A stretch of 37,022 nucleotides of DNA from Bacteroidales bacterium (GTDB lineage Bacteria; Bacteroidota; Bacteroidia; Bacteroidales; UBA12077): contig JAUWQL010000023.1 in assembly GCA_030611105.1 (NCBI GenBank), positions 1-37,022 on the forward strand. Reading direction: 5' to 3'. The notes beneath the pieces are model-generated. The model was not told the DNA's origin and searched no databases. It saw only the letters and a program-made list of their open reading frames with translations. Position numbers and translations under genes: made by a program. This document shows positions 335-30,703 of this stretch, piece by piece. Each line of letters opens with the position of its first letter. The first letter of the stretch is position 1.

Positions 335-1522
335 GTGGACAGTGTAGCGCGACATATTGAAAAGTACATCTTTAAACTACTGGAGTTTTTTCCTGTTGTT
401 GGTATATTAGGAGCCAGACAAGTTGGTAAAACAACACTTGTTAAAATAATAGCAGAAAAAATAAACCGTAAAGTAATATATATTGATTTGGAATCTAATG
501 CCGACAGAAAAAAATTAGAGGATGCTGAATTATATTTAGAATCACAACAAGATAAATGTATTATTATTGATGAAATTCAAAGAAATAAAGAATTATTTCC
601 ACTATTACGTTCATTAGTCGACAAACACAAAGTTGCAGGACGGTTTATAATATTAGGTTCTGCTTCGCCCGAAATAATTAGAGATAGTTCTGAATCTTTG
701 GCAGGAAGAATTGCTTATACAGAATTGCAAGCTTTTAATATTTATGAACTAGGATTTAAAAACATAAATGGTCATTGGTTAAAAGGAGGATTTCCTCTGT
801 CTTACCTCTCTAATGATATTTTTTATTCCAGCGAATGGAGAGAAAACTTTATACGAACATATATCGAAAGAGATATTCCCTTATTGGGTTTAGATATAAA
901 GAAAGTCGACTTTAGAAAATTCCTAAATCTTTTAGCACATATTAATGCCCAAAGCCTTAATTATTCAAATCTTTCAAAATCGATGGAGCTTACTGTTCCT
1001 ACAATAAATAAATATATAGATTTTTTGGAAAAAGCCTTTCTTCTGAAAAAAATTCAGGCCTATACCTTAAACATTAAAAAACGCTTAGTTAAAGCACCAA
1101 AACTATATTTTACCGATACAGGTATATTACATCAATTGTTATCAATAAATAATTTTGAAGATTTACAAGCTAATATCTATCAAGGAGCTTCCTGGGAAAC
1201 CTATGTTATTATTCAAATTTCATCTATATTAAAAAAAGAATATAATTTATATTATTACAGAACACACAATGGTGCAGAAATAGATTTAATAATTGAACAA
1301 AGCAATATAATTTATATGGCAATTGAGATTAAATATACTAATGCGCCAAAATTATCAAAAGGAAATATTATAGCTTTTGCAGATTTAAAAGCAAAAGAAA
1401 ATTTTATAATTACTCCATCATCCGACAATTACCCTATTAAAAACAACATAGAAATCATATCAATAAAAGACTTTATAATTAAACTTATCGAAATGAAATT
1501 TACTGTAATAGATTATAAATAA
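335..1522 (+). CDS. AAA family ATPase with DUF4143 nuclease-like C-terminus
   Basis: The 395-residue protein has an AAA_14-type P-loop (GARQVGKTT, residues 26-34) and a Walker B motif (IIIDE, residues 76-80). A winged-helix-like middle follows. The C-terminal DUF4143 region carries a D...ExK signature (AEIDLII, then EIKYT) typical of PD-(D/E)xK-like folds. Families of this type are common stand-alone accessory genes in Bacteroidota and have no agreed substrate. Length is normal for the family. The start is a GTG at 335; no ATG lies near it in frame. The gene stands alone between two repeat-rich spacers, so it is probably an accessory insertion and not a polysaccharide gene. Family call is firm; role unknown. 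Confidence 0.85.
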   Translation: MDSVARHIEKYIFKLLEFFPVVGILGARQVGKTTLVKIIAEKINRKVIYIDLESNADRKKLEDAELYLESQQDKCIIIDEIQRNKELFPLLRSLVDKHKVAGRFIILGSASPEIIRDSSESLAGRIAYTELQAFNIYELGFKNINGHWLKGGFPLSYLSNDIFYSSEWRENFIRTYIERDIPLLGLDIKKVDFRKFLNLLAHINAQSLNYSNLSKSMELTVPTINKYIDFLEKAFLLKKIQAYTLNIKKRLVKAPKLYFTDTGILHQLLSINNFEDLQANIYQGASWETYVIIQISSILKKEYNLYYYRTHNGAEIDLIIEQSNIIYMAIEIKYTNAPKLSKGNIIAFADLKAKENFIITPSSDNYPIKNNIEIISIKDFIIKLIEMKFTVIDYK

Positions 1523-1854
1523 GCGTGTCCTCCAAAGGTTTAGTAAGTGGCAGGATACAGAATTTAAGAAAAAGGAGACGAGGAGAAAGGGAGAGTTTAC
1601 AATGAGCAATTTTACCAGCTTGACCGCCGAAGGAGGTTAACCAATAAACAATTAAACAATTTTACTGATAAACTATTTGAAACTTGTCCCGTTCCGATAT
1701 GTATCGGGAGCTTTCGGGATGAAATCTGAAACTCGAAACCTGAAATTTGAAACCGCAAACCATATACCGTACACCTTATACCGTAAACCTGCCTACCGCC
1801 CGCCTGTCGGACGGACAGGGCAGGCAGGCCACACACCATTTAACTAATATACCA
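1523..1854. repeat. Intergenic mosaic of dispersed repeats
   Basis: This 332-bp stretch holds no convincing gene. It contains TTAACCAATAAACAATTAAAC-like text (1637-1665), an imperfect hairpin TCCCG...CGGGA with a GAGCTTTCGGGA tail (1687-1719), ACTCGAAACCTGAAATTTGAAA text (1732-1752), the ACCGTAAACC/ACCATAT motif (1753-1789) and a GC hairpin bounded by CCTGCC (1788-1793) and GGCAGG (1819-1828). Several of these same pieces reappear inside the legC coding sequence downstream. Confidence 0.7.
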
Positions 1855-3036
1855 ATGCTTCATTTACTAGGAAGAGAAAAAGAATTATTTACTGATGATA
1901 TTAGAAATCATAAGGAAAAATTAGAAAAAATTGTATCTAATTCCAGGTTTTTAGTTATTGGTGGTGCGGGTTCTATTGGGCAAGCTGTAACTAAAGAGAT
2001 TTTTAAACGAAATCCAAAAAAACTCCATGTTGTAGATATTAGTGAAAATAACATGGTAGAACTTGTTCGGGATATCAGAAGTTCATTTGGATATATTGAT
2101 GGCGATTTTAAAACATTTGCTCTTGATGTTGGCTCTGTAGAATATGATGCATTTATTGAAGCAGATGGAGCTTATGATTATGTCTTAAATTTGTCTGCAC
2201 TAAAACATGTGCGAAGTGAAAAAGACCCATTTACTTTGATGCGGATGATAGATGTGAATATTTTTAACACTGATAAAACTATACAACAATCAATAAAAAA
2301 AGGAGCTAAGAAATATTTTTGCGTTTCTACCGACAAAGCTGCCAATCCTGTGAATATGATGGGAGCATCAAAACGAATTATGGAAATGTTTGTAAATAGA
2401 CGAAGTCAAGACATTAATGTTTCCATGGCTCGATTCGCCAATGTGGCTTTTTCGGATGGCTCTTTATTACACGGCTTCGACCAACGCATTAAAAAACAGC
2501 AGCCAATTGTTGCACCCAATGATATTAAAAGATATTTTGTTACTCCTAAAGAATCCGGTGAGTTATGTTTGATGTCTTGTGTTTTTGGTGAGAATAGAGA
2601 TATTTTCTTCCCAAAATTAAATGAAAACCTATACCTTATATCTTTTGCAGAAATTGCAATAAAATATTTACATAATCTTGGATATGAACCATTTTTATGT
2701 AAAACCGAAGAAGAGGCTCGAAACTTAGCTATAACTTTACCGGATGAAAAAAAATGGCCATGTTTATTCACAAATAGTGATACAACGGGAGAAAAAGATT
2801 TTGAAGAGTTTTATACTGACAATGAAACATTAGAATTGGATCGATTCAAAAATCTGGGTGTTATAAAAAACAAATTATCATTTGATAATAATAAACTGGA
2901 TACTTTTGTTTCAACTATTAATAATTTAAAAGCAGCCAAAAAATGGAACAAAACAGAAATAGTAGAATTGTTTCACGAAATGATCCCGAATTTTGACCAT
3001 AAAGAAACAGGTAGGTATTTAGATAGCAAAATGTAA
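1855..3036 (+). CDS. UDP-N-acetylglucosamine 4,6-dehydratase (FlaA1/CapD/PglF type)
   Basis: This 393-residue cytosolic NAD-dependent SDR should convert UDP-GlcNAc to a UDP-4-keto-6-deoxy sugar. The Rossmann motif GGAGSIG is at residues 36-42, STDKA at 158-162, and the catalytic Tyr is replaced by Met in MMGASK (M169/K173), as is usual in the FlaA1/CapD branch. I chose ATG 1855: the open frame extends back to 1747, but that part translates the spacer repeats and family members begin with a phrase like HLLGREKELF. The product is the substrate for the aminotransferase at 3489. The pair resembles the first two steps of bacillosamine-type or legionaminic-acid synthesis; later steps of those pathways are not in the window. 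Confidence 0.88.
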   Translation: MLHLLGREKELFTDDIRNHKEKLEKIVSNSRFLVIGGAGSIGQAVTKEIFKRNPKKLHVVDISENNMVELVRDIRSSFGYIDGDFKTFALDVGSVEYDAFIEADGAYDYVLNLSALKHVRSEKDPFTLMRMIDVNIFNTDKTIQQSIKKGAKKYFCVSTDKAANPVNMMGASKRIMEMFVNRRSQDINVSMARFANVAFSDGSLLHGFDQRIKKQQPIVAPNDIKRYFVTPKESGELCLMSCVFGENRDIFFPKLNENLYLISFAEIAIKYLHNLGYEPFLCKTEEEARNLAITLPDEKKWPCLFTNSDTTGEKDFEEFYTDNETLELDRFKNLGVIKNKLSFDNNKLDTFVSTINNLKAAKKWNKTEIVELFHEMIPNFDHKETGRYLDSKM

Positions 3037-3043
3037 TCCACAA

Positions 3044-3334
3044 ATGAAAGCTTGGATTTATATTGTTTCGAATAGAAAAGATGGAGTGCTTTATGTTGGA
3101 GTTACAAGTGAATTAAAATACAGAATAGAAAGTCATAAAACAAAGAAATACAAAGACGCTTTCTCAGCACGATACAACCTTGACAAGTTAGTTTATTACG
3201 AGGAGTATAATAGTATAGTTACAGCACGTGCGAGAGAAAAGCAATTGAAGGCAGGAAATAGAGTGAAGAAAGTGAGACTTATTGTGAAAAATAATCCTGA
3301 ATGGCGAGACTTATATGATAAAATTATTGAGTAG
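3044..3334 (+). CDS. Stand-alone GIY-YIG endonuclease (URI type)
   Basis: The 96-residue protein is a complete single-domain GIY-YIG nuclease. The first strand carries YIV (for GIY) and YVG (for YIG), the catalytic Arg sits in YRIESHK, and the metal-binding Glu in AREKQLK. It starts 7 bp after the dehydratase stop and therefore splits the dehydratase from its aminotransferase partner. Small URI-type GIY-YIG proteins are abundant in bacteria and of unknown function; some relatives are homing endonucleases. Only 3 bp separate its stop from an inverted-repeat element (3338-3464), which suggests the two moved together. That is inference. A second, divergent copy sits at 7333. Confidence 0.88.
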   Translation: MKAWIYIVSNRKDGVLYVGVTSELKYRIESHKTKKYKDAFSARYNLDKLVYYEEYNSIVTARAREKQLKAGNRVKKVRLIVKNNPEWRDLYDKIIE

Positions 3335-3337
3335 CAT

Positions 3338-3464
3338 TGATGAGATTGCTTCGCTTCGCTCGCAAATTCGATGAGCTTATATTATTTCGTAAGGTATAGC
3401 CCAATCGAATCTGCATTAATAATCATGACTTTGCGAGGAGCATAGCGACGAAGCAAACTCATCA
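3338..3464. repeat. Inverted-repeat element downstream of GIY-YIG gene
   Basis: The arms TGATGAGATTGCTTCGCTTC... (3338-3366) and ...GACGAAGCAAACTCATCA (3430-3464) are imperfect inverted repeats about 29-35 bp long. They enclose a second nested pair (AATTCGAT near 3365, ATCGAATC near 3402). The text resembles the widespread TTGCGAGGAGCGAAGCGACGAAGCAA repeat seen between genes in many environmental bacteria. A related element lies at 13147-13255. It could fold into a long hairpin in the transcript. Confidence 0.8.
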
Positions 3465-3488
3465 AAACTTGCAAGAACTGAATAAAAA

Positions 3489-4802
3489 ATGTACAAAAAA
3501 TTTATAGACTTCGTAAGAAAAACCTACAACAAACCCCAAGGTTTCATACCTCTCCACGAACCTACATTTCGCGGCAACGAAAAAAAATATCTGGAAGAAT
3601 GTATTGATTCAACTTTTGTTTCAAGTGTAGGAAAATTTGTTGACCTGTTTGAGGAAGAAATGGCAAAATACACCGGAGCAAAAAAAGCCGTTGCTTGCGT
3701 AAACGGAACTAATGCTTTGCATTTAGCTTTAAAACTGGTTGGAGTAGAACCAGATACAGAAGTAATTACACAACCATTAACTTTTATAGCTACAGCCAAT
3801 GCAATTTCATATTGTAATGCAAAACCGGTTTTTATAGATGTAGATAAAGATACTTTGGGCTTATCACCCAAAAAACTTAAAATCTGGCTCGAAGAAAATA
3901 TAAAACTCAGAACTCAGAACCTGTCTGCCGATCAGGCAGGCTCGAAATTCGGTACTCAAGTTGTACCAATAAACAAGTTAACCAATAAACCAATAACAGC
4001 CTGTGTCCCAATGCACACTTACGGGCATCCCTGCAAAATTGATGAGATAATTAAAATATGTAATAAATATAATATCCCTGTTATTGAAGATGCCGCAGAA
4101 AGTTTAGGAAGTTTTTATTCACCCCGTGAAATTCGTGGAACGAATATTTCACAGGGTAAAAACCAACATACAGGAACTTTCGGAGAAATAGGAGTTTTAA
4201 GTTTTAACGGTAATAAAATTTTAACCACCGGCGGTGGTGGAATGTTACTCTTTAAAAATGAAGAACTGGCAAAAAAAGCAAAACATTTAACTACTCAGGC
4301 TAAAGTTTCACATCCATGGGAATTTGCACATGATGAAATCGGATACAACTATCGTATGCCTAACATTAACGCTGCATTAGGCTTGGCACAATTGGAACAG
4401 TTACCAAAGTTTTTGGAATCTAAACGCAAAATAGCTGAAGCATATAAAAACTTCTTCTCAGGTTGTCACCCTGAGCATGTCATCCTGAGCCCGCCTGTCC
4501 GGCAGGCAGGCTCGTCGAAGGGTGTCGAAGGGTCAACCTCCCCCGAAAGCTTTCGGGGCTTAACCTTCGTTTCTGAACCTAAAAATACAAAATCCAACTA
4601 TTGGCTAAATACCATAATATTAAAAGATAAATCCGAGCGCGATTCGTTTTTAAAATACACCAACAAAAATAATATTATGACCCGACCCGTTTGGAAGTTA
4701 ATGAATAAATTAACTATGTTTAAAGATTGCCAAAAAGGAGATTTATCTAATGCTGAATGGCTGGCTGATAGACTTGTAAATATACCTAGTAGCATGATAT
4801 AA
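3489..4802 (+). CDS. LegC-type DegT/DnrJ/EryC1 aminotransferase with in-frame repeat insertions
   Basis: This PLP-dependent sugar aminotransferase should install the 4-amino group on the product of the dehydratase at 1855. The PLP lysine is K243 in SFNGNKILTTGGGG, with NGTNALHLAL early and PMHTYGHP and EDAAESLGS before it. At 437 residues it is about 60 longer than I would expect for the family. Three low-complexity, repeat-derived stretches account for the excess: around 3905-3985, 4119-4157 (13 codons) and about 4464-4562. All three keep the frame, so the protein may still fold, but two flank conserved blocks. Its last ~105 bp recur three more times downstream. It may therefore be a living gene repeatedly rebuilt at its 3' end. 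Confidence 0.85.
   Translation: MYKKFIDFVRKTYNKPQGFIPLHEPTFRGNEKKYLEECIDSTFVSSVGKFVDLFEEEMAKYTGAKKAVACVNGTNALHLALKLVGVEPDTEVITQPLTFIATANAISYCNAKPVFIDVDKDTLGLSPKKLKIWLEENIKLRTQNLSADQAGSKFGTQVVPINKLTNKPITACVPMHTYGHPCKIDEIIKICNKYNIPVIEDAAESLGSFYSPREIRGTNISQGKNQHTGTFGEIGVLSFNGNKILTTGGGGMLLFKNEELAKKAKHLTTQAKVSHPWEFAHDEIGYNYRMPNINAALGLAQLEQLPKFLESKRKIAEAYKNFFSGCHPEHVILSPPVRQAGSSKGVEGSTSPESFRGLTFVSEPKNTKSNYWLNTIILKDKSERDSFLKYTNKNNIMTRPVWKLMNKLTMFKDCQKGDLSNAEWLADRLVNIPSSMI
3905..3985 (+). repeat. Repeat-like insertion 1 inside the LegC-type gene
   Basis: Coding DNA here looks like the spacers: a doubled ACTCAGA, the palindrome-like CCTGTCTGCCGATCAGGCAGG core (3920-3940), CTCGAAATT, then CCAATAAACAAGTTAACCAATAAACC. 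Very similar pieces occur at 1637-1665 and 1732-1752. It encodes a Gln/Lys/Thr-rich stretch between WLEEN and CVPMHTYGHP. Exact limits are uncertain because the family varies in length at this point. Confidence 0.65.
4118..4160 (+). repeat. Palindromic insertion 2 inside the LegC-type gene (39 bp net)
   Basis: TTCACCCCGTGAAAT (4118-4132) and ATTTCACAGGGTAAA (4146-4160) are inverted repeats matching at 13 of 15 positions, around a 13-bp centre. Removing the 13 codons 4119-4157 restores SFYKNQHTGTFG, the expected family sequence. Both 15-bp arms are identical, base for base, to the ends of the GIY-YIG element at 7310-7623. Confidence 0.85.
4464..4562 (+). repeat. Composite repeat insertion 3 inside the LegC-type gene
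   Basis: Between YKNFFSG and TFVSEPKNTKSNYW lies about 99 bp of repeat text: CACCCTGAGCATGTCATCC, the near-palindrome GAGCCCGCC...GGCAGGCAGGCTC (4487-4513), two CGAAGGGT units (4516-4533) and the perfect 18-bp palindrome CCCCGAAAGCTTTCGGGG (4541-4558). It is open in frame and encodes about 33 Pro/Ser/Gly/Arg-rich residues. Similar palindromes sit in the spacers. Confidence 0.8.
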
Positions 4803-4844
4803 AATATTGTTTTGTGGTCGAAAATTTCGACTTTAAAAGAAAAA

Positions 4845-6209
4845 ATGACAAAAGATCAATTAATACATATTATTAATCAAGGCGAAACAGAAACTGTTGA
4901 GTTTAAAAAGTCTTTTTCTAAAAAGGTTTTAGAAACTATTGTTGCATTCTCTAATAGCAAAGGAGGACAAATACTTATTGGAGTTGACAATAATGGTATT
5001 ATTGAAGGAGTTTCATTAAAAGAAGAAGCGGTTCAGAAATGGATAAATGAAATAAAGCAAAATACAAATCCACAAGTTGTTCCTTATGTTGATGTTGTAG
5101 AGATTGAAAATAATAAAGTAGTTGTTCTTACAATAATTGAGTATCCAATAAAACCAGTTAGCTATAAAGAAAAATTTTACAAACGTGTATTAAACTCTAA
5201 TCACCAAATGAGTTTAACAGAGGTTGCCAACGAACATTTACGAACCATTAATAGTAGCTGGGATTATTTCCCAGACCCCAATCATAATATAGAGCATATT
5301 TCGATAAAAAAAGTTGAGAATTATATATCTGAATACGAAAAATGGAATAATACGAAAGTAGAATATAGCCCAATAGAATTTTTAAATAAACAAGAGATTT
5401 TGCGAGAAGGTAAATTAACCTTTGGTTCTTATCTGCTATTTGCTAAAGATCTTTGTATTGTTAGTGATGTTCAAATAGGACGTTTTAAAAGTCCTACAAA
5501 AATAATTGATAGTTTAAACTTAGATTCCGATATATTTACTGAACTTAACGAAATCCTTGCTTTTATTAAAAAGCATTTAATGGTTGAATTTATTATTACT
5601 GGTAAGCCTCAACGCGAAGAACGTTACGATTATCCTGTTGAAGCTATTAGAGAAGTGGTGATTAATATGTTAATTCACAGGGATTACCACAATAGCAATG
5701 GGAGTATAATCAAAATATATGACGATAGAATAGAATTTTATAATCCCGGTGGTTTATATGGAGATTTAACTATTAAAAAACTTCTTAAGTTTAAATATTC
5801 TTCACAAAGTAGAAATAAACTTATTGCCAAAGCTTTTAAAGAAATCGGAACTATTGAAAAATATGGGTCTGGAATAAAAAGAATATTTGATATTTGTGAA
5901 AATTACGGTATTAAAGCTCCTGTATTAAATCTTAGTCCAAATAGTTTTGAAGTTATATTATTTAAGAAAAAAATTGGGGTCGGAGATAATGTCGGAGATA
6001 ATGTCGGAGATAATCGCTTGCAGAGAGTATTAGAATTAATTATAGAAAATAATCAAATATCAGCAAAACAAATTTCTGAAATACTAAATGTAACAAGTCG
6101 TACAATAGAAAGAGATATTGAAAAACTAAAACATCAAAATAAAATTAAACGCATAGGTAGTGAAAAAAGAGGTTATTGGGAAGTATTAAAGAATGGGCAG
6201 AATACCTAA
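4845..6209 (+). CDS. AlbA_2/Schlafen-type ATP-binding transcriptional regulator
   Basis: The 454-residue protein has an N-terminal AlbA_2 domain (TVEFKKSF, then SNSKGGQILIGVDNNG), a central HATPase_c_4-type region (EAIREVVINMLIHRDY, RIEFYNPGG, GSGIKRI) and a C-terminal winged helix (ISAKQISEILNVTSRTIERD). Between the last two is a VGDN linker repeated three times (5979-6014). Such proteins are frequent accessory genes with predicted DNA-binding or nuclease-regulatory roles; no function is proven for this type. I chose ATG 4845 over an in-frame TTG at 4812, because family members begin just before the ETVEFK motif. It lies directly behind the legC stop and in front of the first displaced legC tail, so it looks like cargo inserted at the legC 3' end. 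Confidence 0.85.
   Translation: MTKDQLIHIINQGETETVEFKKSFSKKVLETIVAFSNSKGGQILIGVDNNGIIEGVSLKEEAVQKWINEIKQNTNPQVVPYVDVVEIENNKVVVLTIIEYPIKPVSYKEKFYKRVLNSNHQMSLTEVANEHLRTINSSWDYFPDPNHNIEHISIKKVENYISEYEKWNNTKVEYSPIEFLNKQEILREGKLTFGSYLLFAKDLCIVSDVQIGRFKSPTKIIDSLNLDSDIFTELNEILAFIKKHLMVEFIITGKPQREERYDYPVEAIREVVINMLIHRDYHNSNGSIIKIYDDRIEFYNPGGLYGDLTIKKLLKFKYSSQSRNKLIAKAFKEIGTIEKYGSGIKRIFDICENYGIKAPVLNLSPNSFEVILFKKKIGVGDNVGDNVGDNRLQRVLELIIENNQISAKQISEILNVTSRTIERDIEKLKHQNKIKRIGSEKRGYWEVLKNGQNT
5979..6014 (+). repeat. 12-bp coding repeat, three units (VGDN linker)
   Basis: GTCGGAGATAAT occurs three times in perfect tandem and encodes (VGDN)3 between the HATPase and winged-helix domains. Copy-number change would alter linker length without shifting frame. 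Confidence 0.9.
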
Positions 6210-6234
6210 TATAATTAAGCAACAAAATCAGGAA

Positions 6235-6339
6235 TTAATGAATAAACTAAAAATGTTTAGGAAGTGCCAGAAAGGAGATTTAACAAATGCCAAATGGCTG
6301 GAAGAAAAAATTGTAAATATTCCAAGTAGTGTAATATAA
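6235..6339 (+). pseudogene. Displaced 3' end of the LegC-type gene (copy B)
   Basis: This aligns without gaps to the last 105 bp of the gene at 3489 (4698-4802), about 79% identical by my hand count. It encodes MNKLKMFRKCQKGDLTNAKW...NIPSSVI and stops at the same point. It begins abruptly at TTAATGAATAAA, 26 bp after the AlbA_2 stop, with no legC homology before. The frame is intact, so it has not decayed long or it came from a working homologue. It cannot be functional alone. Confidence 0.88.
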
Positions 6340-6393
6340 ATAGTATTTTTTCGAAATTAAAGCATCATTTAAAGTAATAAGGTGTAAAAAATT

Positions 6394-6729
6394 ATGAGTC
6401 GTTCTGCAAAAAAAGCCGAAATAGTTATTTATAAAGCACTTGATAGTGCTGATTTTCAAATTGAAGTAAGAGTTGAAGATGAAACTGTTTGGTTGAATCG
6501 AAATCAAATTGCTTTATTGTTTGACAGAGATGTTAAAACCATTGGCAAACACATTACGAATGCCCTAAAAGAAGAATTGAATTCCATTTCAGTTATCGCA
6601 AAATTTGCGACAACTGCATCCGATGGAAAAGTATATCAAGTTGAATATTACAACTTAGATCTTATTATCTCTGTTGGTTATAGAGTTAAACCACAACGTG
6701 GCATACAATTCAGACTTTTGGAAAATTAG
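6394..6729 (+). pseudogene. RhuM-like gene, truncated at its 3' end
   Basis: The 111 residues match the N-terminal third of RhuM/Fic-adjacent virulence-type proteins: IVIYKALDS..FQIEVRVEDETVWLNRNQIA, then VEYYNLDLIISVGYRVKPQRGIQFR. Family members run to roughly 300 residues or more; here the homology ends after GIQFR and a stop follows within five codons. The break is at about 6714-6729, just before the ORF6N gene. RhuM proteins have no established biochemical role. The fragment could still be translated, but most of the family sequence is missing, so I treat it as a remnant of a recombination event. Confidence 0.75.
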
Positions 6730-7309
6730 ATATTAATGACAAGCAAATTATTAATAGAACAAGAAATCAAAACTAAAATATACATTTTTAGAGAAGTACA
6801 AGTTATGCTTGATAGAGATTTAGCCAAATTATATCAAGTAGAAACTAAAGTTTTAAATCAAGCTGTAAAACGAAATATAGATAGATTCCCAGATGATTTT
6901 ATGTTTCAATTATCTAATGATGAATTTGACCATTGGAGGTCACAAAATGTGACTTCCAAAAATGACAAAATGGGATTAAGACGCGCCCCCTATGCATTTA
7001 CAGAACAAGGTGTATCAATGTTGGCATCGGTATTAAAAAGTGAAATTGCAGTTGAAGTTAGTGTTCAAATTATTAGAACCTTTGTTAGTATTAGAAAATT
7101 ATTATCGGAAAACGTTCTCGTTTTTCAGAAAATTGAACAAATTGAACAAAAGATAAAAAGCCACGATAAAAAGTTCGATTTACTTCTTAAAACAGATTTA
7201 CCAACAAACGAAGGCATTTTTTACGATGGACAAATATTTGATGCGTATGCCTTTGTTTCTAAATTAATAAAATCAGCAAAGAGCTCAATTGTACTAATAG
7301 ATAATTATA

Positions 7310-7623
7310 TTCACCCCGTGAAATAAATTCAAATGGAAGGATTCTATTATACATATATACTTCAAAGCAAAAAAGATGGTAACAATTATGCTGGTTATAC
7401 AAAAGATTTGAATTTACGCTTTGAGCAACACCAAAATGGTGAAGTAGAATCTACAAAACATAGAAGACCACTAAAATTGATATATTTTGAAGCTTGTTTA
7501 AACCAAAAGGATGCTTTGAAAAGAGAGAAATATTTTAAAACTCATTATGGGAAGATGTTTTTAAAGAATCGATTAAATAATTGGTTTAAACAGTAAAGCT
7601 CAAAGGGTATTTCACAGGGTAAA
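7310..7623 (+). mobile_element. GIY-YIG element bounded by 15-bp terminal inverted repeats
   Basis: TTCACCCCGTGAAAT (7310-7324) and ATTTCACAGGGTAAA (7609-7623) are inverted repeats (13 of 15) lying exactly where the ORF6N gene is split. Between them is only the 87-codon GIY-YIG gene. The identical arm pair bounds the short in-frame insertion in legC at 4118-4160, which lacks the gene. The simplest reading is an endonuclease-bearing element and its short non-autonomous or precursor form. No transposase is present. Confidence 0.75.
7333..7596 (+). CDS. GIY-YIG endonuclease within the ORF6N-splitting element
   Basis: The 87-residue protein has the GIY-YIG core: YIL and YAG in the first strands, Arg in LRFEQH, Glu in KREKYFK. 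It is a complete single-domain member of the URI-like group and shares the architecture, but little sequence, with the protein at 3044. The ATG lies 8 bp after the left terminal repeat and the stop 12 bp before the right one, so the gene fills the element. Known GIY-YIG homing enzymes cut alleles lacking their element, and that would fit its position in a split gene; here this is inference. It may instead be a passenger. Confidence 0.87.
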   Translation: MEGFYYTYILQSKKDGNNYAGYTKDLNLRFEQHQNGEVESTKHRRPLKLIYFEACLNQKDALKREKYFKTHYGKMFLKNRLNNWFKQ

Positions 7624-7949
7624 TGAAACTGTATTAACATTGCTAACAAAACGAAATGCCAAGGTAAAAGCAACAATTTATTCTGCTTCGGTTTCAAAAC
7701 AACTCAAATTGGATTTGGAAAAACACAATGCTCAATACGAAGCCATTGAATTAAAAACATTTACTAAATCACACGACCGTTTCCTAATCATTGATGACAG
7801 CACTGTTTACCACATTGGGGCTTCACTAAAAGACCTCGGGAAAAAATGGTTTGCTTTTTCTAAGATTAATATTGATGCTGTTGAAATGATTAAAAGATTG
7901 AAAATTTTATAATTGTTTCGATGGCTTTAAGATCCGGTTAATATGGATA

Positions 7950-8063
7950 TTAATGAATAAACTCGAAATGTTTAAAATTTGCCAAACAGATGAATTAACA
8001 AATTCAAATTGGCTGGAAGAAAGACTTGTAAATATTCCGAGTAGTGTAATACAAATGGTTTAA
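7950..8063 (+). pseudogene. Displaced 3' end of the LegC-type gene (copy C)
   Basis: Starting at the same TTAATGAATAAA as copy B, this encodes MNKLEMFKICQTDELTNSNW...NIPSSVIQMV and stops at 8061-8063, three residues beyond the other tails. No legC homology precedes it. It follows the orphan half of the ORF6N gene by 37 bp. It is intact in frame but only 36 codons long. Confidence 0.87.
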
Positions 8064-8082
8064 AAATAAATGGTATTAAACC

Positions 8083-8172
8083 CCAGGGCAAGCCCTGGAC
8101 CCTCTCTTCCGGGGCAAGCCCCGGGGAATTAGACCATACCTTCTCGTCCGCCGGAGCGGAACGCGAAGGAGG
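8083..8172. repeat. Cluster of three GC-rich hairpins
   Basis: Two perfect 7-bp stems with the same AA loop lie side by side: CCAGGGC-AA-GCCCTGG (8083-8098) and CCGGGGC-AA-GCCCCGG (8109-8124). A third imperfect palindrome runs from CCTTCTCGTCCGC to GCGGAACGCGAAGG (8141-8169). They stand out strongly from the AT-rich surroundings. They might act as terminators but lack U-tracts, so I class them as dispersed repeats. Confidence 0.75.
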
Positions 8173-8239
8173 ATTAAAAAACCAGCTTTAAAAACAAGTT
8201 ACCTGCAAGATGAAAAGAGCATTCCAATAAAAAGATAGC

Positions 8240-8270
8240 TTGTCCCATATTTTTACTATTTTTGGGACAA
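8240..8270. promoter_or_regulatory. Inverted repeat upstream of the DUF6088-like remnant (operator candidate)
   Basis: TTGTCCCA (8240-8247) and TGGGACAA (8263-8270) form a perfect 8-bp inverted repeat around a 15-bp AT-rich spacer, ending 10 bp before ATG 8281. The spacing is typical of a repressor site overlapping a promoter. Autoregulation by the adjacent antitoxin-like gene is my inference; a hairpin role is the alternative. Confidence 0.5.
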
Positions 8271-8280
8271 ATAATAGTAA

Positions 8281-8389
8281 ATGTCAGTATTAAAAAAAAT
8301 AGAACAAATTTTAGAAAAGAAAAAAACGGGAGAAATTCTGTTCATCTTGGATTTTCTTGAAATCAGCGATTACGATACCGTTAGAAAAT
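8281..8389 (+). pseudogene. 5' remnant of a DUF6088/AbiEi-like gene
   Basis: About 36 residues, MSVLKKIEQILEKKKTGEIL followed by FILDFLEISDYDTVRKS, resemble the start of DUF6088/AbiEi-type antitoxin-like proteins (k..G.iff..DFl..gs.davrkaL). The similarity stops at about 8389, where the reading frame of an AlbA_2-family C-terminal half takes over in another frame. The join falls in GAAAATCCC, which fits both genes, so it looks like a deletion at microhomology. The family call is tentative because the piece is short. Confidence 0.45.
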
Positions 8390-8769
8390 CCCGGAGGTTT
8401 GCCAAAAGGACTCTCTTCGGCTACATTTGGGAAAAAAGCAGTAAGGCGCAACCCTATTATCACAAATTTATTGCAAAGGTGCAAGTTTGTTGAAAATATG
8501 GGCACGGGGATTCATAAAATGAAGCAACTTTGTTTTGAAAATATTATTCCTGAACCGGAATTCATATTTAACGACTTTTTCACTGTTATATTTAAACGAC
8601 ATACATTAAATGAAGGCCAGCACTTGGTCTTTAGCTATATAAAACACAACCAGGGCGTTATGGCTAAAACCATTTTGGAAAAATTAAATGTGCCCTTTGG
8701 AACAGTTGACAGGCATATCCGGGTTTTATTGAAAATGAGCGAATAGAACGAAAAGGAAGTAAAAAATAA
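8384..8769 (+). pseudogene. 3' half of an AlbA_2/HATPase regulator, truncated and frameshifted
   Basis: From 8384 one frame reads ENPGGLPKGLSS, NPIITNLLQRCKFVENMGTG and then a winged helix (AKTILEKLNVPFGTVDRHIR), the HATPase-to-wHTH half of the AlbA_2 family. The N-terminal half is gone. Near 8730 the frame breaks: the expected end NERIERKGSKK continues in another frame to TAA 8767-8769, as if one base had been lost. It is a different family member from the intact genes at 4845 and 8831. Confidence 0.8.
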
Positions 8770-8830
8770 TTAATAATTACCATCCTGTCCAGATAATAAT
8801 TATCGAAAGTCGAAGGATGTATAAATAGAA

Positions 8831-10213
8831 ATGACAAACAACGAAATAAAATATATTATTGATAAAGGCGAAGGTTTAACTGTTGAATTTAAAAAAGCAG
8901 AAAATCAATTGCCTAAAAATTTGTTTGAAACAGTTTGTGCTTTTCTAAATCACAAAGGAGGAACTATATTATTAGGCATTACTGATAATAAAAATGTTAT
9001 AGGTATTCATAAAAGTATAGCCTTACAATTATGTAAAGAATTTACCAACCTAAGCAATAATAAACAAAAGCTTGATCCACCGTTTTTATTACAGGCAAAA
9101 ACAGTTGAATATAACAATAAAAACCTTATTTATATTTTTGTGCCTGTAAGCTCTCAAGTACATAAAACAGCAGGAAAAATATATGACAGGAGTAATGATG
9201 GTGATTTTCTCCTTTCTACAAATGAACAAATTAGTCGCTTATATATCCATAAAAGCACATATTATTCTGAAAATACTATTTATCCTTATCTAAAAGAAGA
9301 ACATTTCGTAGACGGATTACTTGAAAAAGCAATGCAAAGAATAAAGAATGTACGTCCGGCGCATCCATGGCTAACACTAAATAAAACAGATTTTTTTAAA
9401 ACAGCCGGTTTATACCGAACAGACATTAAAACAGGTGAAGAAGGATTTACACAAGCTGCACTTTTACTTTTTGGCAAAGAAGAAATTATACAAAGTGCTA
9501 TTCCTCATTATAAGATTGATGCTATTTTAAGACGTAAAGATGTAGACAGATATGATGATAGGGAAAATATTCGTTGCAATCTTATTGATGCCTATGAAAA
9601 ACTGATGAATTTTGTAGCCAAGCATTTGCCTGATAAATTTTTTATGCAAGGCGATCAGAGAATATCTTTACGCGAAAAAATTTTTAGAGAAATAATAGCA
9701 AATTTCTTAATGCATAGAGAATTTACCAATGCCTTTCCTGCTACTTTTATCATCTACGAAAATAAGGTCGTAGTTAAAAATGCCAATCGTCCTCAAAAAC
9801 ACGGAATATTATTACCCGGGCAATTTGAACCTTTTTCTAAGAATCCTACTATTGCCAAATTTTTTGTGCAAATGGCTTTTGCCGAAGACCTTGGTACTGG
9901 TATCAATAATGTATATCGATTTTTGCAGTCTTATTCAGGAACGAAACCTATATTTAAGGAAAATGATATTTTTGAATCAATCATTCCATTAACAGAAAAT
10001 GTCCCTGAAAATGTCCCTGAAAATGTCCCTGAAAGTAGATTGAAAAAAATTATTGAAATCATAAAACAAAATAATAAAACAACAATTAAAAATCTTTCCG
10101 AATATTTTAATGTTGATATAAAAACCATAAAACGAGATTTGGAAAAACTAAAAACACAAGACAAAATAAAACGAATTGGGCCTGATAAAGGTGGGAGCTG
10201 GGAAGTATTATAA
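8831..10213 (+). CDS. AlbA_2/Schlafen-type ATP-binding transcriptional regulator
   Basis: The 460-residue protein has an AlbA_2 domain (LTVEFKKAENQ, FLNHKGGTILLGITDN), a HATPase_c_4-like middle (REIIANFLMHREF, EDLGTGINNVYRF) and a C-terminal winged helix (TIKNLSEYFNVDIKTIKRDL). The two last domains are joined by VPEN repeated three times (9995-10030). It shares architecture and its final motif (IKRIG...GG/RG.WEVL) with the protein at 4845 but is clearly diverged. Role is unknown; predicted DNA-binding accessory regulator. It sits between two broken members of the same family and before copy D of the legC tail, so it belongs to the accessory island and not to polysaccharide synthesis. Confidence 0.85.
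   Translation: MTNNEIKYIIDKGEGLTVEFKKAENQLPKNLFETVCAFLNHKGGTILLGITDNKNVIGIHKSIALQLCKEFTNLSNNKQKLDPPFLLQAKTVEYNNKNLIYIFVPVSSQVHKTAGKIYDRSNDGDFLLSTNEQISRLYIHKSTYYSENTIYPYLKEEHFVDGLLEKAMQRIKNVRPAHPWLTLNKTDFFKTAGLYRTDIKTGEEGFTQAALLLFGKEEIIQSAIPHYKIDAILRRKDVDRYDDRENIRCNLIDAYEKLMNFVAKHLPDKFFMQGDQRISLREKIFREIIANFLMHREFTNAFPATFIIYENKVVVKNANRPQKHGILLPGQFEPFSKNPTIAKFFVQMAFAEDLGTGINNVYRFLQSYSGTKPIFKENDIFESIIPLTENVPENVPENVPESRLKKIIEIIKQNNKTTIKNLSEYFNVDIKTIKRDLEKLKTQDKIKRIGPDKGGSWEVL
9995..10030 (+). repeat. 12-bp coding repeat, three units (VPEN linker)
   Basis: GAAAATGTCCCT is repeated three times in tandem at the same domain boundary as the VGDN repeat of the paralogue at 4845. The DNA sequences differ, so the two arrays arose separately or diverged completely while keeping a 12-bp period. 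Confidence 0.9.
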
Positions 10214-10223
10214 ATACTATCCT

Positions 10224-10290
10224 CTCCTGCCAATCGGTTTATCCGCCCTAAAAGGACAGGCAGGAGTGATTAGTGATTAGTGAATAGTAA
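10224..10290. repeat. Hairpin and short tandem repeat after the regulator
   Basis: CTCCTGCC (10224-10231) pairs with GGCAGGAG (10259-10266). It is followed at once by a GTGATTA tandem repeat (10265-10285). Too far from a U-tract to be a textbook terminator. Confidence 0.6.
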
Positions 10291-10302
10291 AAATTTAAAA
10301 TA

Positions 10303-10401
10303 AATGAATCGGCTATTCAGAAACATATAGATAAACTAAAGCACCTTGGAATAATTGAAAGATTGGGATCAACAAGAGGCTCTTGGAAAATTATTCAATA
10401 A
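10303..10401 (+). pseudogene. 3'-terminal scrap of another AlbA_2-family gene
   Basis: The 32 codons read NESAIQKHIDKLKHLGIIER followed by LGSTRGSWKIIQ and a stop, the recognition helix and end of the winged helix that closes the AlbA_2 family proteins. Nothing upstream continues it. It is the fourth trace of this family in the island. Confidence 0.75.
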
Positions 10402-10429
10402 GTAGGGAGCTGTTTAATTTTCAATTTTA

Positions 10430-10666
10430 ATGAAAATCAACAAAAATGAAAACCTTAATTCCGTCCAGACCAAATCATCGAGTACCAAACGTGATGCTTT
10501 TTCACAATACGGCAATGAAAACAACATTATGACCCGCCCTGCATGGACTTTAATAAATAAACTTGAAATGTTTAAGAATTGCCAAACCGGTGACTTAACA
10601 AATGCCGAATGGCTGGCTGACAGACTTGTTAATATACCAGGTAGTGTAAATTTATCTCAACCTTAA
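10430..10666 (+). pseudogene. Displaced 3' end of the LegC-type gene (copy D, longest)
   Basis: This 78-codon frame carries legC homology from about 10487: KRDAFSQYGNENNIMTRPAW, then TLINKLEMFKNCQTGDLTNAEW...LVNIPGSV. That is about 27 residues more than copies B and C, which start at TTAATGAATAAA (here TTAATAAATAAA, 10550). Because it stands next to rfbF it may be the ancestral end of legC, left behind when the island built up. The first ~19 residues have no legC similarity. Not expected to be functional. Confidence 0.87.
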
Positions 10667-26873: not shown

Positions 26874-28082
26874 ATGACAGCCAATACAACTTTATTGTAT
26901 ATTGACCCAGGAACCGGAAGTTTATTAATTAGTGCCCTATTTGGTATAGTAGTAACTGTTTTATATTCCTTAAAAGGTGTTTTTTATAAAATCTCCTTAT
27001 TAATCTCTGCAACAGGAAAAAAGAATTTATCGGATTTTTCTGGAAAAATTGTCTTTTTTAGTGAAGGTAAAGCATATTGGCGAGTATATAAGCCTGTTAT
27101 TGAAGAGTTAATCAATAAGGGACAAAAAATTATTTATCTGTCTGCTGACAAAGATGATGAAGGTTTGTCTATTTCGTCTGAGTATGTTGAAACACATTAT
27201 CTTGGAAAGATAAAACAAGCAATATTCATTTTAAACAGATTGAGAGCAAAAATGTGTGTTATGTCAACTCCACAGCTTGACGTAATATCGTTAAAGCGTT
27301 CAAAACATGTTGAGCATTATTGTCATATTATACATTCACCTACAGATATTCATGCCTACAAAAAATTTGCATTTGATTTTTATGATTCTGTTTTATGCAG
27401 CAGTTCATCGCAGATTAGTAATTTAAAATATTTGGAGAATGAACGACATACTAAACCCAAGCAAATCTTCCAAACTGGATGCACTTATTACGATGTTTTT
27501 AGGTCAAATAATGAGGATAGAGATAATTATATATTGTTAGCTCCAACATGGGGAGATAGAACATTCTTTAAATCTTGTGGTAAAGAAATATTAAACAACT
27601 TATTGAAAGGTGGTCATAAAGTTATTTTTAGACCACACCCACAATCTTGGATTTCAGACAAAGAATTAATGGATGATATAATTTCCACATATAGTTCTAA
27701 TTCTAATTTGATTATTGATAAGGAAACCAGAGGAGAAAAAAGCATTAATAAATCAAAACTTTTAATTTGTGATATTACTTCGGGAATGTTGTTTGATATG
27801 GCATTCGTTTATAAAAAACCGGTTGTTGCTATTAAATTTGATTGGGCAGATGGTGGCTATGAAGCTTCAGATTTAATTAATGATACAACAGCAATTAACT
27901 TACTTAAAGATGTTGGGGATGTACTAAACGTTGCAGATGTGAAAGACATCTCAGAAACTGTAGTTAAAAGCTCTGCTAAAATTATCACTCAAGAGATAAT
28001 AGGCAAACATATCTTCAATTTTCAAAAAGCTGGAAAAGTAGCAGCAGAACAAATATTATCAATCTTTAAAACCATAAAATAA
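26874..28082 (+). CDS. CDP-glycerol glycerophosphotransferase-like protein (TagB/TagF family)
   Basis: The 402-residue protein begins with a membrane segment (LLYIDPGTGSLLISALFGIV, then VTVLYSLKG) and continues as a GT-B-like CDP-glycerol glycerophosphotransferase: HSPTDIHAYKKFAFDFYDS, LAPTWGDRTFF, FRPHPQSW (H255) and the C-terminal CDITSGMLFDMAF (D300-S303). Known TagB/TagF enzymes transfer glycerol phosphate from CDP-glycerol to lipid-linked acceptors in teichoic acid synthesis. In a Gram-negative locus it would decorate or cap a saccharide with glycerol phosphate or another polyol phosphate. No CDP-glycerol synthase is visible here. The next gene starts inside its stop (TAATG). Confidence 0.87.
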   Translation: MTANTTLLYIDPGTGSLLISALFGIVVTVLYSLKGVFYKISLLISATGKKNLSDFSGKIVFFSEGKAYWRVYKPVIEELINKGQKIIYLSADKDDEGLSISSEYVETHYLGKIKQAIFILNRLRAKMCVMSTPQLDVISLKRSKHVEHYCHIIHSPTDIHAYKKFAFDFYDSVLCSSSSQISNLKYLENERHTKPKQIFQTGCTYYDVFRSNNEDRDNYILLAPTWGDRTFFKSCGKEILNNLLKGGHKVIFRPHPQSWISDKELMDDIISTYSSNSNLIIDKETRGEKSINKSKLLICDITSGMLFDMAFVYKKPVVAIKFDWADGGYEASDLINDTTAINLLKDVGDVLNVADVKDISETVVKSSAKIITQEIIGKHIFNFQKAGKVAAEQILSIFKTIK

Positions 28083-30703
28083 TGTTTTTTGTAAATTTTT
28101 TAAAGCATATATTAGCGTTTTTCTTTAGCTTAACTGATAGTTATGGACTATCAATAATTTTGTTAAGCCTAACTGTAACCGTTATAATGCTTCCTTTATT
28201 TTGGATAGCAGAGAAAATTCAGAATAAGGAAAGAGCAAGAAAAGCAAAAATGCAACCTGCTCTTGATAAGTTTAAAGATGTAACAAACAAACAAGAAAAA
28301 TATTATTACACAAGAAGAATATATAAGCAATATAATTATGCACCCTTCTATTCATTAACAGGTTTATTGGGCTTATTTATCCAAATGCCATTTTTCCTTG
28401 CTGCTTATTGGATGTTGTTGGAATACACACCACTTCAAGGAGTTTCTTTTGGTCCAATCAAAGATTTATTTCAGCCGGACGGATTGTTGTCTTACGGGGG
28501 ATTGTCAATTAATGTCTTACCTTTTGTGATGACAATCGTCAATTTATTTGCAGGTTATTTATATGCAAAAAACATGAATAAAAGTGAACAAATACAATTG
28601 ATAATAATTGCCTTTATCTTTTTGATATTATTATATAATCTTTCAGCGGCACTTGTGCTATATTGGACAATGAATAATGTATTTGCTATTGGGAAGAATT
28701 GGTTGATAAGTAGAACTAATAAACCAGTCAAGATAAATAATAAAATAGAACGATATAGCTTGTTTGGGGATGGTGTTAAATGGTTAAAATCCCATAGTCC
28801 TCAAATTATATTTGTATCGTTTATATGGTCTATTTATTTCATGGGGTTAAGTATCTTCTATAAAATTAACCTTGGGTTATGCTTAACATCTGTTATGTCA
28901 ATATTGACATCATTCTTTTTTTTAGAAATAATATGCTCTCTGATGTTGATTTTTAAAAACAAAAAAAAACAATTAAGATGGACAATGATAATAATATATT
29001 TGCTTCTAAATTTCTCTCTATCTGTTGTTTTCTTATTGGTGGTATTTGATAAATTGTACTTTATCTCTGATTCTTTGATTTTAGTATTATGCTCAGGTGT
29101 TCTTTTGTTATTTACTATTGTATTATTAGTACAAAACTACTCAATGCTTGTAGGTGAACCTATTGATAAGGTGAAAAACAGAAATACACAATATTATTAC
29201 TTCTCAAGTATTCTAATCATTATCTCGCCTTTAATTCCATATTACCTAAACAATCCAATTTATTTTTCAATAGCATCAGTTTTTCTATATTTTATTATAC
29301 TGTTGGGAATACCCCTTCTATTAATTGCAGCAACGAATTATTTAAATAAAAACAAGGATTCTATATATCTCCTTTTTGGTACTTTTGTTGCTCTATTCTT
29401 TACACTATACACATTACCAATATTAACAGATCTTTCTTCGCTAATTGCAGAAAATAATTATTTCGTACATATAATCTCATTATTAACAACTACATGCATT
29501 TTTATATGGCTTTATCATAAATCGAAAATTGCTATTCTTCTATTTAGTTTAGTACTACCATTAGGTGCGATTGTTCAAATAATAGCAAAACCAACTGAAG
29601 GTATTAACCAAACAGAAAAAAATGACAACCAGAAAACGGATTTATATAATCACTTATCATCATTGGAAATAAAAAGAAGTCCGAATATATATTATTTGTT
29701 ATATGACACATATATCAATGAAAATTTAATGAAGTTTTATGATATTGATAATTCTGAGCAAATGAATTATCTGAGAGATAAAAACTTTCAAGTTTCTGAA
29801 AATGTATATTCTATAGGCAAATCAACACTTCCCAGTATTGCACCCTTATTAGAAGTAGCAAGTGTTGATTTTGCGACTCAACGTCGAAATATTATTTTGG
29901 GTAATTCAACTGTAGATAACTTGCTTCAGAAAAATGGATATGAAACGCATTATATTGTTGGTGAATATTTTTTACGAGGCTTAAATGTACCTTTTGGTGG
30001 TGATTTTTTGAATAATGAGACTATAAATTCTTTATCCGAGAATGGTTATTCAGATAACTCAATGATGACTGTTCTGTATAGTACATTGATAGGAGAATTT
30101 AAGTTTGATAATGAATTTTTGCTTGGAACAATAACAGAGGATATGAAAGCAGAACTACTAAAAAGGTATACTCTCACTAACCTTACTAGTAAACCAAAAT
30201 TTTTGTTTTACCATACAAATTTCCCAGGACATGGAGTAGGAAATTGCCACCCAAATGAAAATGAACTGTATGCAAAAAATGTACAGATAGCAAACAATAT
30301 GATGAAAATAGATGTTCAGAATATATTATCAATTGATACGAATGCAATTATCATCATTGCTGGTGATCATGGAGCATACAGGAAAGGAGATTGTAAGACA
30401 GGTTTTAAAAGATATAAAGACGATGAAATTAGAGCGGAACATATTCTAGATATGCATGGAAGTTTTTTGGCTGTTAAATATCCCGATAATTATATACAGG
30501 AAGACATAATATTATTACAAAATGTATTTATTAATATCTTTTCTTACCTCTTTGATGTCAATAATCTTTATGATTATAAGATACCAGCAAAAACAAGAAG
30601 GAGTAACCGTCTACCACAAGGATGCATCACTAACGGAAAAATAACATTTGGTGCAGACAAAGGTAAAAGCCTTGAAGAAATTTTTTCTGAAAGTTCAGAG
30701 TAA
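28082..30703 (+). CDS. YidC/Oxa1-like domain fused to a sulfatase/LtaS-like phosphotransferase domain
   Basis: The 873-residue protein has three parts. Residues 1-215 match the YidC/Oxa1/Alb3 fold: SYGLSIILLSL, the cytoplasmic KMQPALDKFK loop, FFLAAYWML and LVLYWTMNN (191-199). Residues ~235-515 hold about nine or ten further membrane segments. Residues ~535-830 form an alkaline-phosphatase/sulfatase-type domain with a metal Asp (D542 in YDTY), a Thr nucleophile candidate (T582 in KSTLPS), FPGHGVG and the GDHGAY metal motif (D762, H763). The last domain resembles LtaS/OpgB-type glycerophosphate transferases. In place of the Arg that YidC insertases keep in the groove, this has Thr33. It is coupled to the CDP-glycerol-transferase gene. 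I infer an envelope phosphodiester transferase. Confidence 0.85.
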   Translation: MFFVNFLKHILAFFFSLTDSYGLSIILLSLTVTVIMLPLFWIAEKIQNKERARKAKMQPALDKFKDVTNKQEKYYYTRRIYKQYNYAPFYSLTGLLGLFIQMPFFLAAYWMLLEYTPLQGVSFGPIKDLFQPDGLLSYGGLSINVLPFVMTIVNLFAGYLYAKNMNKSEQIQLIIIAFIFLILLYNLSAALVLYWTMNNVFAIGKNWLISRTNKPVKINNKIERYSLFGDGVKWLKSHSPQIIFVSFIWSIYFMGLSIFYKINLGLCLTSVMSILTSFFFLEIICSLMLIFKNKKKQLRWTMIIIYLLLNFSLSVVFLLVVFDKLYFISDSLILVLCSGVLLLFTIVLLVQNYSMLVGEPIDKVKNRNTQYYYFSSILIIISPLIPYYLNNPIYFSIASVFLYFIILLGIPLLLIAATNYLNKNKDSIYLLFGTFVALFFTLYTLPILTDLSSLIAENNYFVHIISLLTTTCIFIWLYHKSKIAILLFSLVLPLGAIVQIIAKPTEGINQTEKNDNQKTDLYNHLSSLEIKRSPNIYYLLYDTYINENLMKFYDIDNSEQMNYLRDKNFQVSENVYSIGKSTLPSIAPLLEVASVDFATQRRNIILGNSTVDNLLQKNGYETHYIVGEYFLRGLNVPFGGDFLNNETINSLSENGYSDNSMMTVLYSTLIGEFKFDNEFLLGTITEDMKAELLKRYTLTNLTSKPKFLFYHTNFPGHGVGNCHPNENELYAKNVQIANNMMKIDVQNILSIDTNAIIIIAGDHGAYRKGDCKTGFKRYKDDEIRAEHILDMHGSFLAVKYPDNYIQEDIILLQNVFINIFSYLFDVNNLYDYKIPAKTRRSNRLPQGCITNGKITFGADKGKSLEEIFSESSE

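Follow-up and report, generated by a model that had tools for sequence, protein, structure and literature searches.

The stretch of DNA analysed here, called the window throughout, covers positions 1 to 37,022 of contig JAUWQL010000023.1 of a Bacteroidales bacterium (assembly GCA_030611105.1; 217 contigs, 89.7% complete), and it carries a gene for a LegC family aminotransferase (legC) whose 3′ end recurs three times downstream (Table 1). Between the four copies, designated tails A to D in their order along the forward strand, lie genes of the AlbA_2, RhuM and ORF6N families, for which the usual annotation is regulator or antirepressor. A repeat search returned four 129-nt copies in direct order, at positions 4675, 6212, 7927 and 10527, that are 100%, 73%, 72% and 75% identical to copy A, respectively. 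Comparison of the cargo flanks gave 79% identity over 111 nt for A and B (E 7e-23) and 81% over 107 nt for C and D (E 4e-26), similarity that is far beyond chance.

A sequence-only reading of the window, made without database searches, had described four copies of the legC 3′ end bracketing cargo, each with an open frame, and an extension of D upstream to about 10487. The repeat search and the flank-comparison E-values bear out the bracketing copies; the reading frame is indeed open across the tail in all four, and D can be aligned to A from position 10487 (4635 in A), while the alignment of C reaches back to about 7932. The cargo named by that reading was recovered as AlbA_2 genes, a RhuM remnant and a split ORF6N gene, with the exception of a supposed DUF6088 remnant: this open reading frame (ORF; 8281–8493) has no Pfam match at E 1e-3 and is overlapped by the AlbA_2-type remnant between C and D. 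Its statement that the window holds no integrase agrees with a scan of 20 window proteins, which revealed no integrase; the remaining ORFs lay outside that scan. The tail has only these four matches in its own genome (E up to 10), and for this genome we reject a dispersed repeat. Judging by position and by the length of D, A would be the newest tail and D the oldest.

Table 1. Genes, tail copies and cargo at the legC locus of the window (HTH, helix-turn-helix)
Feature	Position	Strand	Evidence and remarks
legC, LegC family aminotransferase, 437 aa	3489..4802	+	TIGR04181, 539 bits (cut-off 420)
Tail A, current legC 3′ end	4698..4802	+	Repeat search; homology to D starts at 4635
Cargo 1 (A to B): AlbA_2 + HATPase_c_4 + HTH protein	4848..6209	+	Pfam
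Tail B, orphan	6235..6339	+	Repeat search and alignment; frame open
Cargo 2a (B to C): RhuM remnant	6394..6729	+	Pfam PF13310; stop within match
Cargo 2b (B to C): ORF6N gene split by GIY-YIG gene	6736..7912 (pieces 6736–7326, 7640–7912)	+	Piece 1, Pfam PF10543; piece 2, no Pfam match, matches C-terminal part of the RhuM profile built here
GIY-YIG gene inside the ORF6N gene	7333..7596	+	Pfam PF01541; between palindrome halves (by eye)
Tail C, orphan	7932..8063	+	Repeat search and alignment; frame open
Cargo 3a (C to D): AlbA_2-type remnant (HATPase_c_4)	8357..8746	+	Pfam
Cargo 3b (C to D): AlbA_2 + HATPase_c_4 + HTH protein	8831..10213	+	Pfam
C-terminal remnant of another AlbA_2 gene	10300..10401	+	Limits by eye; profile match ends 91 nt before D
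Tail D, orphan, longest copy	10487..10651	+	Repeat search and alignment; presumably the oldest (native) tail

Orphan legC tails in other genomes

Genomes were sampled at one per species and are mostly drafts. A search with the tail peptide gave a match in 21 of 98 genomes, and a 13-row tail profile in 65 of the 393 genomes of the order. Counting as orphans those matches that neither stand at the end of a full gene nor are cut by a contig end, and excluding contig-edge cases and genome G046, we find 16 orphan tails in 10 of the 65 tail-bearing genomes: three each in the window's own genome and in G193, two each in G114 and G215, and one each in G071, G089, G161, G185, G365 and G214. For 13 of the 16, a match to an AlbA_2 or RhuM/ORF6N profile lies upstream at a distance of at most 700 nt, the profiles having been built from these and related loci, with some orphan loci among their members. 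The three without such a match are the G185 orphan, near a contig start, the first G114 orphan, and the first G215 orphan, which follows a hisF-like gene (by eye).

We compared 33 distinct legC genes, mostly with 1.5 kb of downstream sequence (two, below 310 aa, are apparently cut by a contig end). AlbA_2 follows legC within about 45 nt in six of them (the window, G071, G089, G193, G161 and G309), and an orphan tail stands behind the cargo in five of these six, G309 being the exception. In G071 the next gene (neuD-like, by eye) begins within the orphan, as it does within the in-gene tail in the empty loci of G215 and G026, so that at this locus it is the orphan that holds the original-looking junction. 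In the excluded G046 (locus L170, contig C95, reverse strand, 1483–5324), other small genes, about 3 kb in all, apparently divide legC in two (by eye), which appears to be an internal disruption rather than displacement of an end.

Direct repeats around cargo families and controls

In the flank tests, thresholds were set by the analyst, and cargo and control loci are the best-scoring of their families. The first test took 72 long-form AlbA_2 regions of relatives, picked by open-frame length from the best-scoring matches listed, and added the window and loci L028 and L029; with 900 nt on each side and E<1e-8, direct repeats were found at 18 of 72 AlbA_2 genes (four discovery genes included). 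A second test with 700-nt flanks and E<1e-8, in which 30 loci were entered for each of the RhuM, ORF6N, glycosyltransferase and epimerase families and loci without an ORF or enough flank were dropped, gave repeats at 15 of 68 AlbA_2 genes (11 of 64 without the four discovery genes), 4 of 26 RhuM genes and 5 of 24 ORF6N genes (4 of 23 without the window), against 0 of 25 glycosyltransferase and 0 of 30 epimerase genes (cargo families versus controls with discovery loci removed, Fisher p 4e-4). The 30 top AlbA_2 loci, a mixed set with many short-form genes, yielded 1 of 25, the sole positive being the window. A further, independent sample comprised 80 named AlbA_2 loci drawn from several phyla; direct repeats were present at 8 of the 67 testable ones (7 of 66 without G089, which is GWF2_33_38, a known locus) and inverted repeats at none of the 67. 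Among ORFs in sugar-gene and murC neighbourhoods the count was 1 of 119, and that one is an ORF6N gene before murC. AlbA_2 is present in 85 of 98 genomes searched, RhuM in 31 of 59 and ORF6N in 24 of 59.

Many of the repeats are ends of neighbouring genes

Among 28 positive loci, those at legC excepted, no sequence is common to the repeats of different loci; the repeats therefore come from the target, and terminal repeats borne by an element are ruled out. Gene tails are repeated at the UDP-glucose dehydrogenase gene (ugd) of Prolixibacter denitrificans (L316), where an insertion breaks the reading frame of the orphan; at murB (L186, RhuM cargo), whose orphan contains a stop codon; and at a DegT-like gene named by eye (L317, Bro-N cargo). 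Heads are repeated at murC (L218, ORF6N cargo), a DegT gene (L344, AlbA_2 cargo), a DUF4268 gene (L228, ORF6N cargo), an unnamed 423-aa gene (L068) and, by eye, an ABC ATPase gene (L084, YhcG cargo) and glycosyltransferase genes (L088, L338).

At L318, 167-nt copies with 98% identity flank an AlbA_2 gene (2603–2769 and 4923–5088), and a 172-aa ORF begins within the downstream copy; the event may be recent. At L088 (reverse strand, 555–1888) a module that resembles DUF3791/DUF3990 by eye has apparently entered the head of an AlbA_2 gene; that head is present in a 132-nt copy with 95% identity, so that AlbA_2 would itself be a target.

Divergence of intact and orphan copies

In our simulation (kappa 2, AT-rich composition) the orphan drifted neutrally and the intact copy underwent synonymous changes only, until a pair had as many differences as were observed. 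Over 14 intact/orphan coding pairs from outside the window, nonsynonymous changes are too few for duplication plus decay (combined p 1e-7), and seven pairs have p<0.05 individually (G089, G161, L068, L084, L228, L316 and L344). These 14 include L317, L338, G185 and L186 and leave out further G193 and G114 orphans, which are not independent; L218, L088, L318 and L350 stood outside the simulation. For A and D of the window, p is 0.0025, the floor of 400 simulations. A plain count of synonymous and nonsynonymous changes over 12 non-window pairs keeps its significance across kappa values from 1 to 4. Taken together, the intact and orphan copies look like alleles rather than decayed duplicates.

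Empty and filled alleles at murG–murC

Within the window's own genus, where the murC locus was found in 18 of 19 genomes searched, an ORF6N gene lies between murG and murC in eight (G000, G005, G013, G016, G018, G012, G017 and G014) and is lacking in the other ten. Occupied and empty loci are compared here within a genus, and at legC only across genera. Copies of the murC head upstream were looked for in ten of the loci, four of them filled. In G000 a 53-nt murC head (85%) directly follows murG, placed as in the empty allele, and the junction of ORF6N with murC is nearly identical to that of G005 (by eye). This pattern is consistent with what would be expected had the recipient's head been stranded when ORF6N entered together with the start of a donor murC.

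Other features of the window and related loci

Palindrome halves (CACCCCGTGAAAT...ATTTCACAGGGT) flank the GIY-YIG gene at 7313–7622, and an intact copy of the palindrome lies in frame within legC at 4120–4157; the strict pattern is intact only once in the genome. Short G+C-rich repeats seen by eye at 3921–3945, 4490–4512 and 8080–8130 are in part in frame within legC, apparently lengthening the protein. In the linker that precedes the HTH, AlbA_2 genes contain tandem repeats of 12 nt (window, about 5978–6014 and 10000–10036, as well as other AlbA_2 loci); read by eye as NVGDNVGDN, NVPENVPEN and KTTQKTTQ, these repeats vary from gene to gene and seem liable to change in length. At L166 (reverse strand, 1298–3164) two adjacent RhuM genes look similar at their two ends and divergent in between, as though the middle part had been exchanged (by eye). 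Elsewhere in the window (28082–30703) an 873-aa protein matches 60KD_IMP (YidC/Oxa1 family) over residues 21–210, the remainder being without a Pfam match at E 1e-5.

Discussion

Using repeat searches, flank comparisons and a simulation of divergence, our work describes a scar in which the end of a conserved gene is found a second time beyond a solitary accessory gene. We think it probable, with moderate confidence, that gene ends are displaced here without an integrase, through cargo that arrives on DNA of a related strain. In one strain, a single-gene cargo (AlbA_2, RhuM or ORF6N) would come to adjoin the end of a conserved gene, and DNA of that strain would then enter a relative having the same gene without the cargo. 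At one end, homologous recombination, presumably of the RecA type, would take place inside the shared gene; at the other, the incoming DNA would join a site inside the corresponding gene end of the recipient. This second join may be illegitimate, as in homology-facilitated illegitimate recombination, whose combination of one homologous and one illegitimate junction is consistent with the G000 murC pattern, or a circle may have been integrated by one crossover. The outcome would be a complete gene with the donor's end, then the cargo, then the stranded end of the recipient, and at the legC of the window at least three such events would have taken place, leaving D as the oldest tail and A as the newest. 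The scar at many genes points to movement of single genes without a dedicated integration enzyme.

The proposal of the sequence-only reading, that insertions had repeatedly occurred at the 3′ end of legC with each bringing a replacement tail, gains from the recurrence of the arrangement in other genera and from the overall excess of synonymous divergence. Its analogy with integration at tRNA or guaA ends fails for the site-specific kind. The tail has 44 codons, and orphans start at points that range from some 30 codons ahead of it to its codon 26; because of these variable left edges, with heads of other genes displaced in the same way as tails, we rule out site-specific integration. That reading had also counted a mobile tail repeat away from legC as evidence against itself: the window's own genome has none, and elsewhere tails are found with AlbA_2 at a distance from legC, in G215 and, in stretches read without legC, in G365 and G214. 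We regard as a doubtful extension the idea that AlbA_2, RhuM, ORF6N, Bro-N, YhcG (DUF1016), DUF234-ATPase and other such solitary genes make up a guild of selfish genes that lack a recombinase and spread through the displacement of gene ends; their own nuclease or nucleic-acid activity would provoke the break and the one-sided recombination by which they are installed, and the displaced end would be the scar that remains visible.

Several observations weigh against the displacement of gene ends by related-strain DNA. No donor genome was identified. Seven of the 14 simulated pairs (G071, G193, G215, G185, L317, L338 and L186) are not significant singly; within the window only A/D is (A/B, p 0.10; A/C, p 0.34), and in the plain count the five legC pairs alone and the window fall short of significance at 0.05 once kappa is 2 or more. 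Several repeats are non-coding and outside the reach of the coding-pair test, among them low-complexity or intergenic ones (L102, L117 and L331) that may have other causes, and others are nearly identical (98% in L318, 95% in L088), as fresh duplication would give. A clear orphan head occurs in G000 only among the four filled murC loci checked, the other three looking clean. At legC, G026, whose AlbA_2-like gene lies one gene further downstream, lacks an orphan tail, and in G309 AlbA_2 lies between legC and the next gene, again without an orphan; G309 speaks against a strict rule, yet would match the look expected of a donor-type allele. Flanking repeats also occur around 10 of 200 other ORFs of the AlbA_2 loci (900 nt, E<1e-8) and around 6 of 182 neighbours of AlbA_2 in the multi-phylum sample. 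These six encode Bro-N, YhcG, DUF234-ATPase, AlbA_2, DUF3800 and AlbA_2 proteins, and are cargo-type, other solitary accessory genes; with such rates among neighbours, AlbA_2 is enriched rather than unique.

The tree of tails that the sequence-only reading had suggested as a test, with replacement expected to place orphan tails among the full legC genes of other lineages and local duplication to cluster the tails of the locus, came out equivocal: built on 48 tails and 129 nt, it is too weak to decide. Counting against displacement, the four window tails group together (weak support, 0.72), as do the in-gene and orphan tails of each of G071, G089 and G185, and the G215 tails fall with the tails of G114, from the same genus, and the G193 tails with those of G089. 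On the other side, the in-gene and orphan tails of G161 are 67% alike and fall in different groups. The groupings are what local duplication, or donors that were very close relatives, would give; given the weak clustering of the window tails, donors, if there were any, would usually have been close relatives.

Strict insertion with long target duplication, in which the target is copied at insertion and the copies then drift in place, would produce the same geometry and locus-specific repeats, and it agrees with the clustering of several in-gene/orphan pairs on the tree and with the repeats of 95–98% identity (L088 and L318). We consider it unlikely, given the shortage of nonsynonymous changes over the 14 pairs and the G161 tails, only 67% alike and grouping with different lineages. 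Less likely still is tandem duplication or unequal crossing-over of a resident segment of gene end plus cargo, followed by loss of cargo copies. Two adjacent RhuM-tail units in G193 and the weak grouping of the window tails are in keeping with such a process; the cargo of the window differs from one interval to the next (AlbA_2; RhuM/ORF6N; AlbA_2), heads are displaced as well as tails, and the divergence is synonymous-biased, all of which speak against it.

Purifying selection after insertion on orphan ends that function in place, as translated mini-peptides or through translational coupling, would explain the open frames of all window tails and the AlbA_2 start that overlaps a tail stop in G215 (ATGA). 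It is nonetheless very improbable, since the codon at which an orphan begins varies, many orphans are truncated, a conserved tryptophan and cysteine are changed in the G071 orphan, and the L316 and murB orphans are interrupted. A classical integrase-dependent element, for which gene ends are typical attachment sites, can hardly be responsible, with no integrase among the 20 window proteins scanned, variable left edges and no repeat sequence common to the loci.

The recurrent border scar provides a sequence signature by which insertions of AlbA_2, RhuM and ORF6N genes can be counted and oriented, and it makes the movement of solitary, recombinase-less genes directly testable. Short ORFs that resemble gene ends beside such genes are likely to be debris.

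Elements that integrate at the 3′ ends of tRNA genes or guaA bring a replacement end and leave the old end at their far side. The loci described here likewise show a regenerated 3′ end with the old end at the far side; they differ in that no integrase was found, there is no fixed core site and the cargo is one to few genes. Restriction–modification genes of Helicobacter are described as inserting with long target duplication (Nobusato et al. 2000, as cited in PMC1643837), and here too an inserted gene is flanked by long direct repeats of its target, in a minority of genes (for example 11 of 64 AlbA_2 genes); in contrast, the cargo is SLFN_AlbA_2, RhuM and ORF6N (Pfam) rather than restriction–modification, and the copies taken together look like alleles and not like fresh duplicates. 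For the orphan immunity arrays of the type VI secretion system (T6SS) in Vibrio cholerae, homology-facilitated illegitimate recombination was proposed (Kirchberger et al. 2017, PMC5361080), with successive insertions anchored on one side pushing the old 3′ piece downstream, as we propose for legC; those arrays keep an immunity gene, whereas here what is left over is the end of a biosynthetic gene. For displacement of Rhs C-terminal tips, homologous recombination with circular intermediates was proposed (Jackson et al. 2009, PMC2935791). Common to that system and ours are a conserved gene, a downstream array of displaced 3′ pieces and core fragments of variable length. Rhs tips, however, are non-homologous and change the gene product, whereas the legC tails are homologous, with conserved residues, so that the product of the target gene should stay the same; the cargo here is AlbA_2, RhuM or ORF6N, and 5′ heads are displaced too. 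Among the matches listed by an open-licence literature search, none concerned mobility of these three families by gene-end duplication or such scars at biosynthetic genes. The Rhs and T6SS models concern polymorphic toxins; the pieces displaced here come from ordinary biosynthetic genes, so that the process would operate generally, independent of toxin diversification. What is new relative to known displacement is the unexpected cargo and the biosynthetic genes that serve as its targets.

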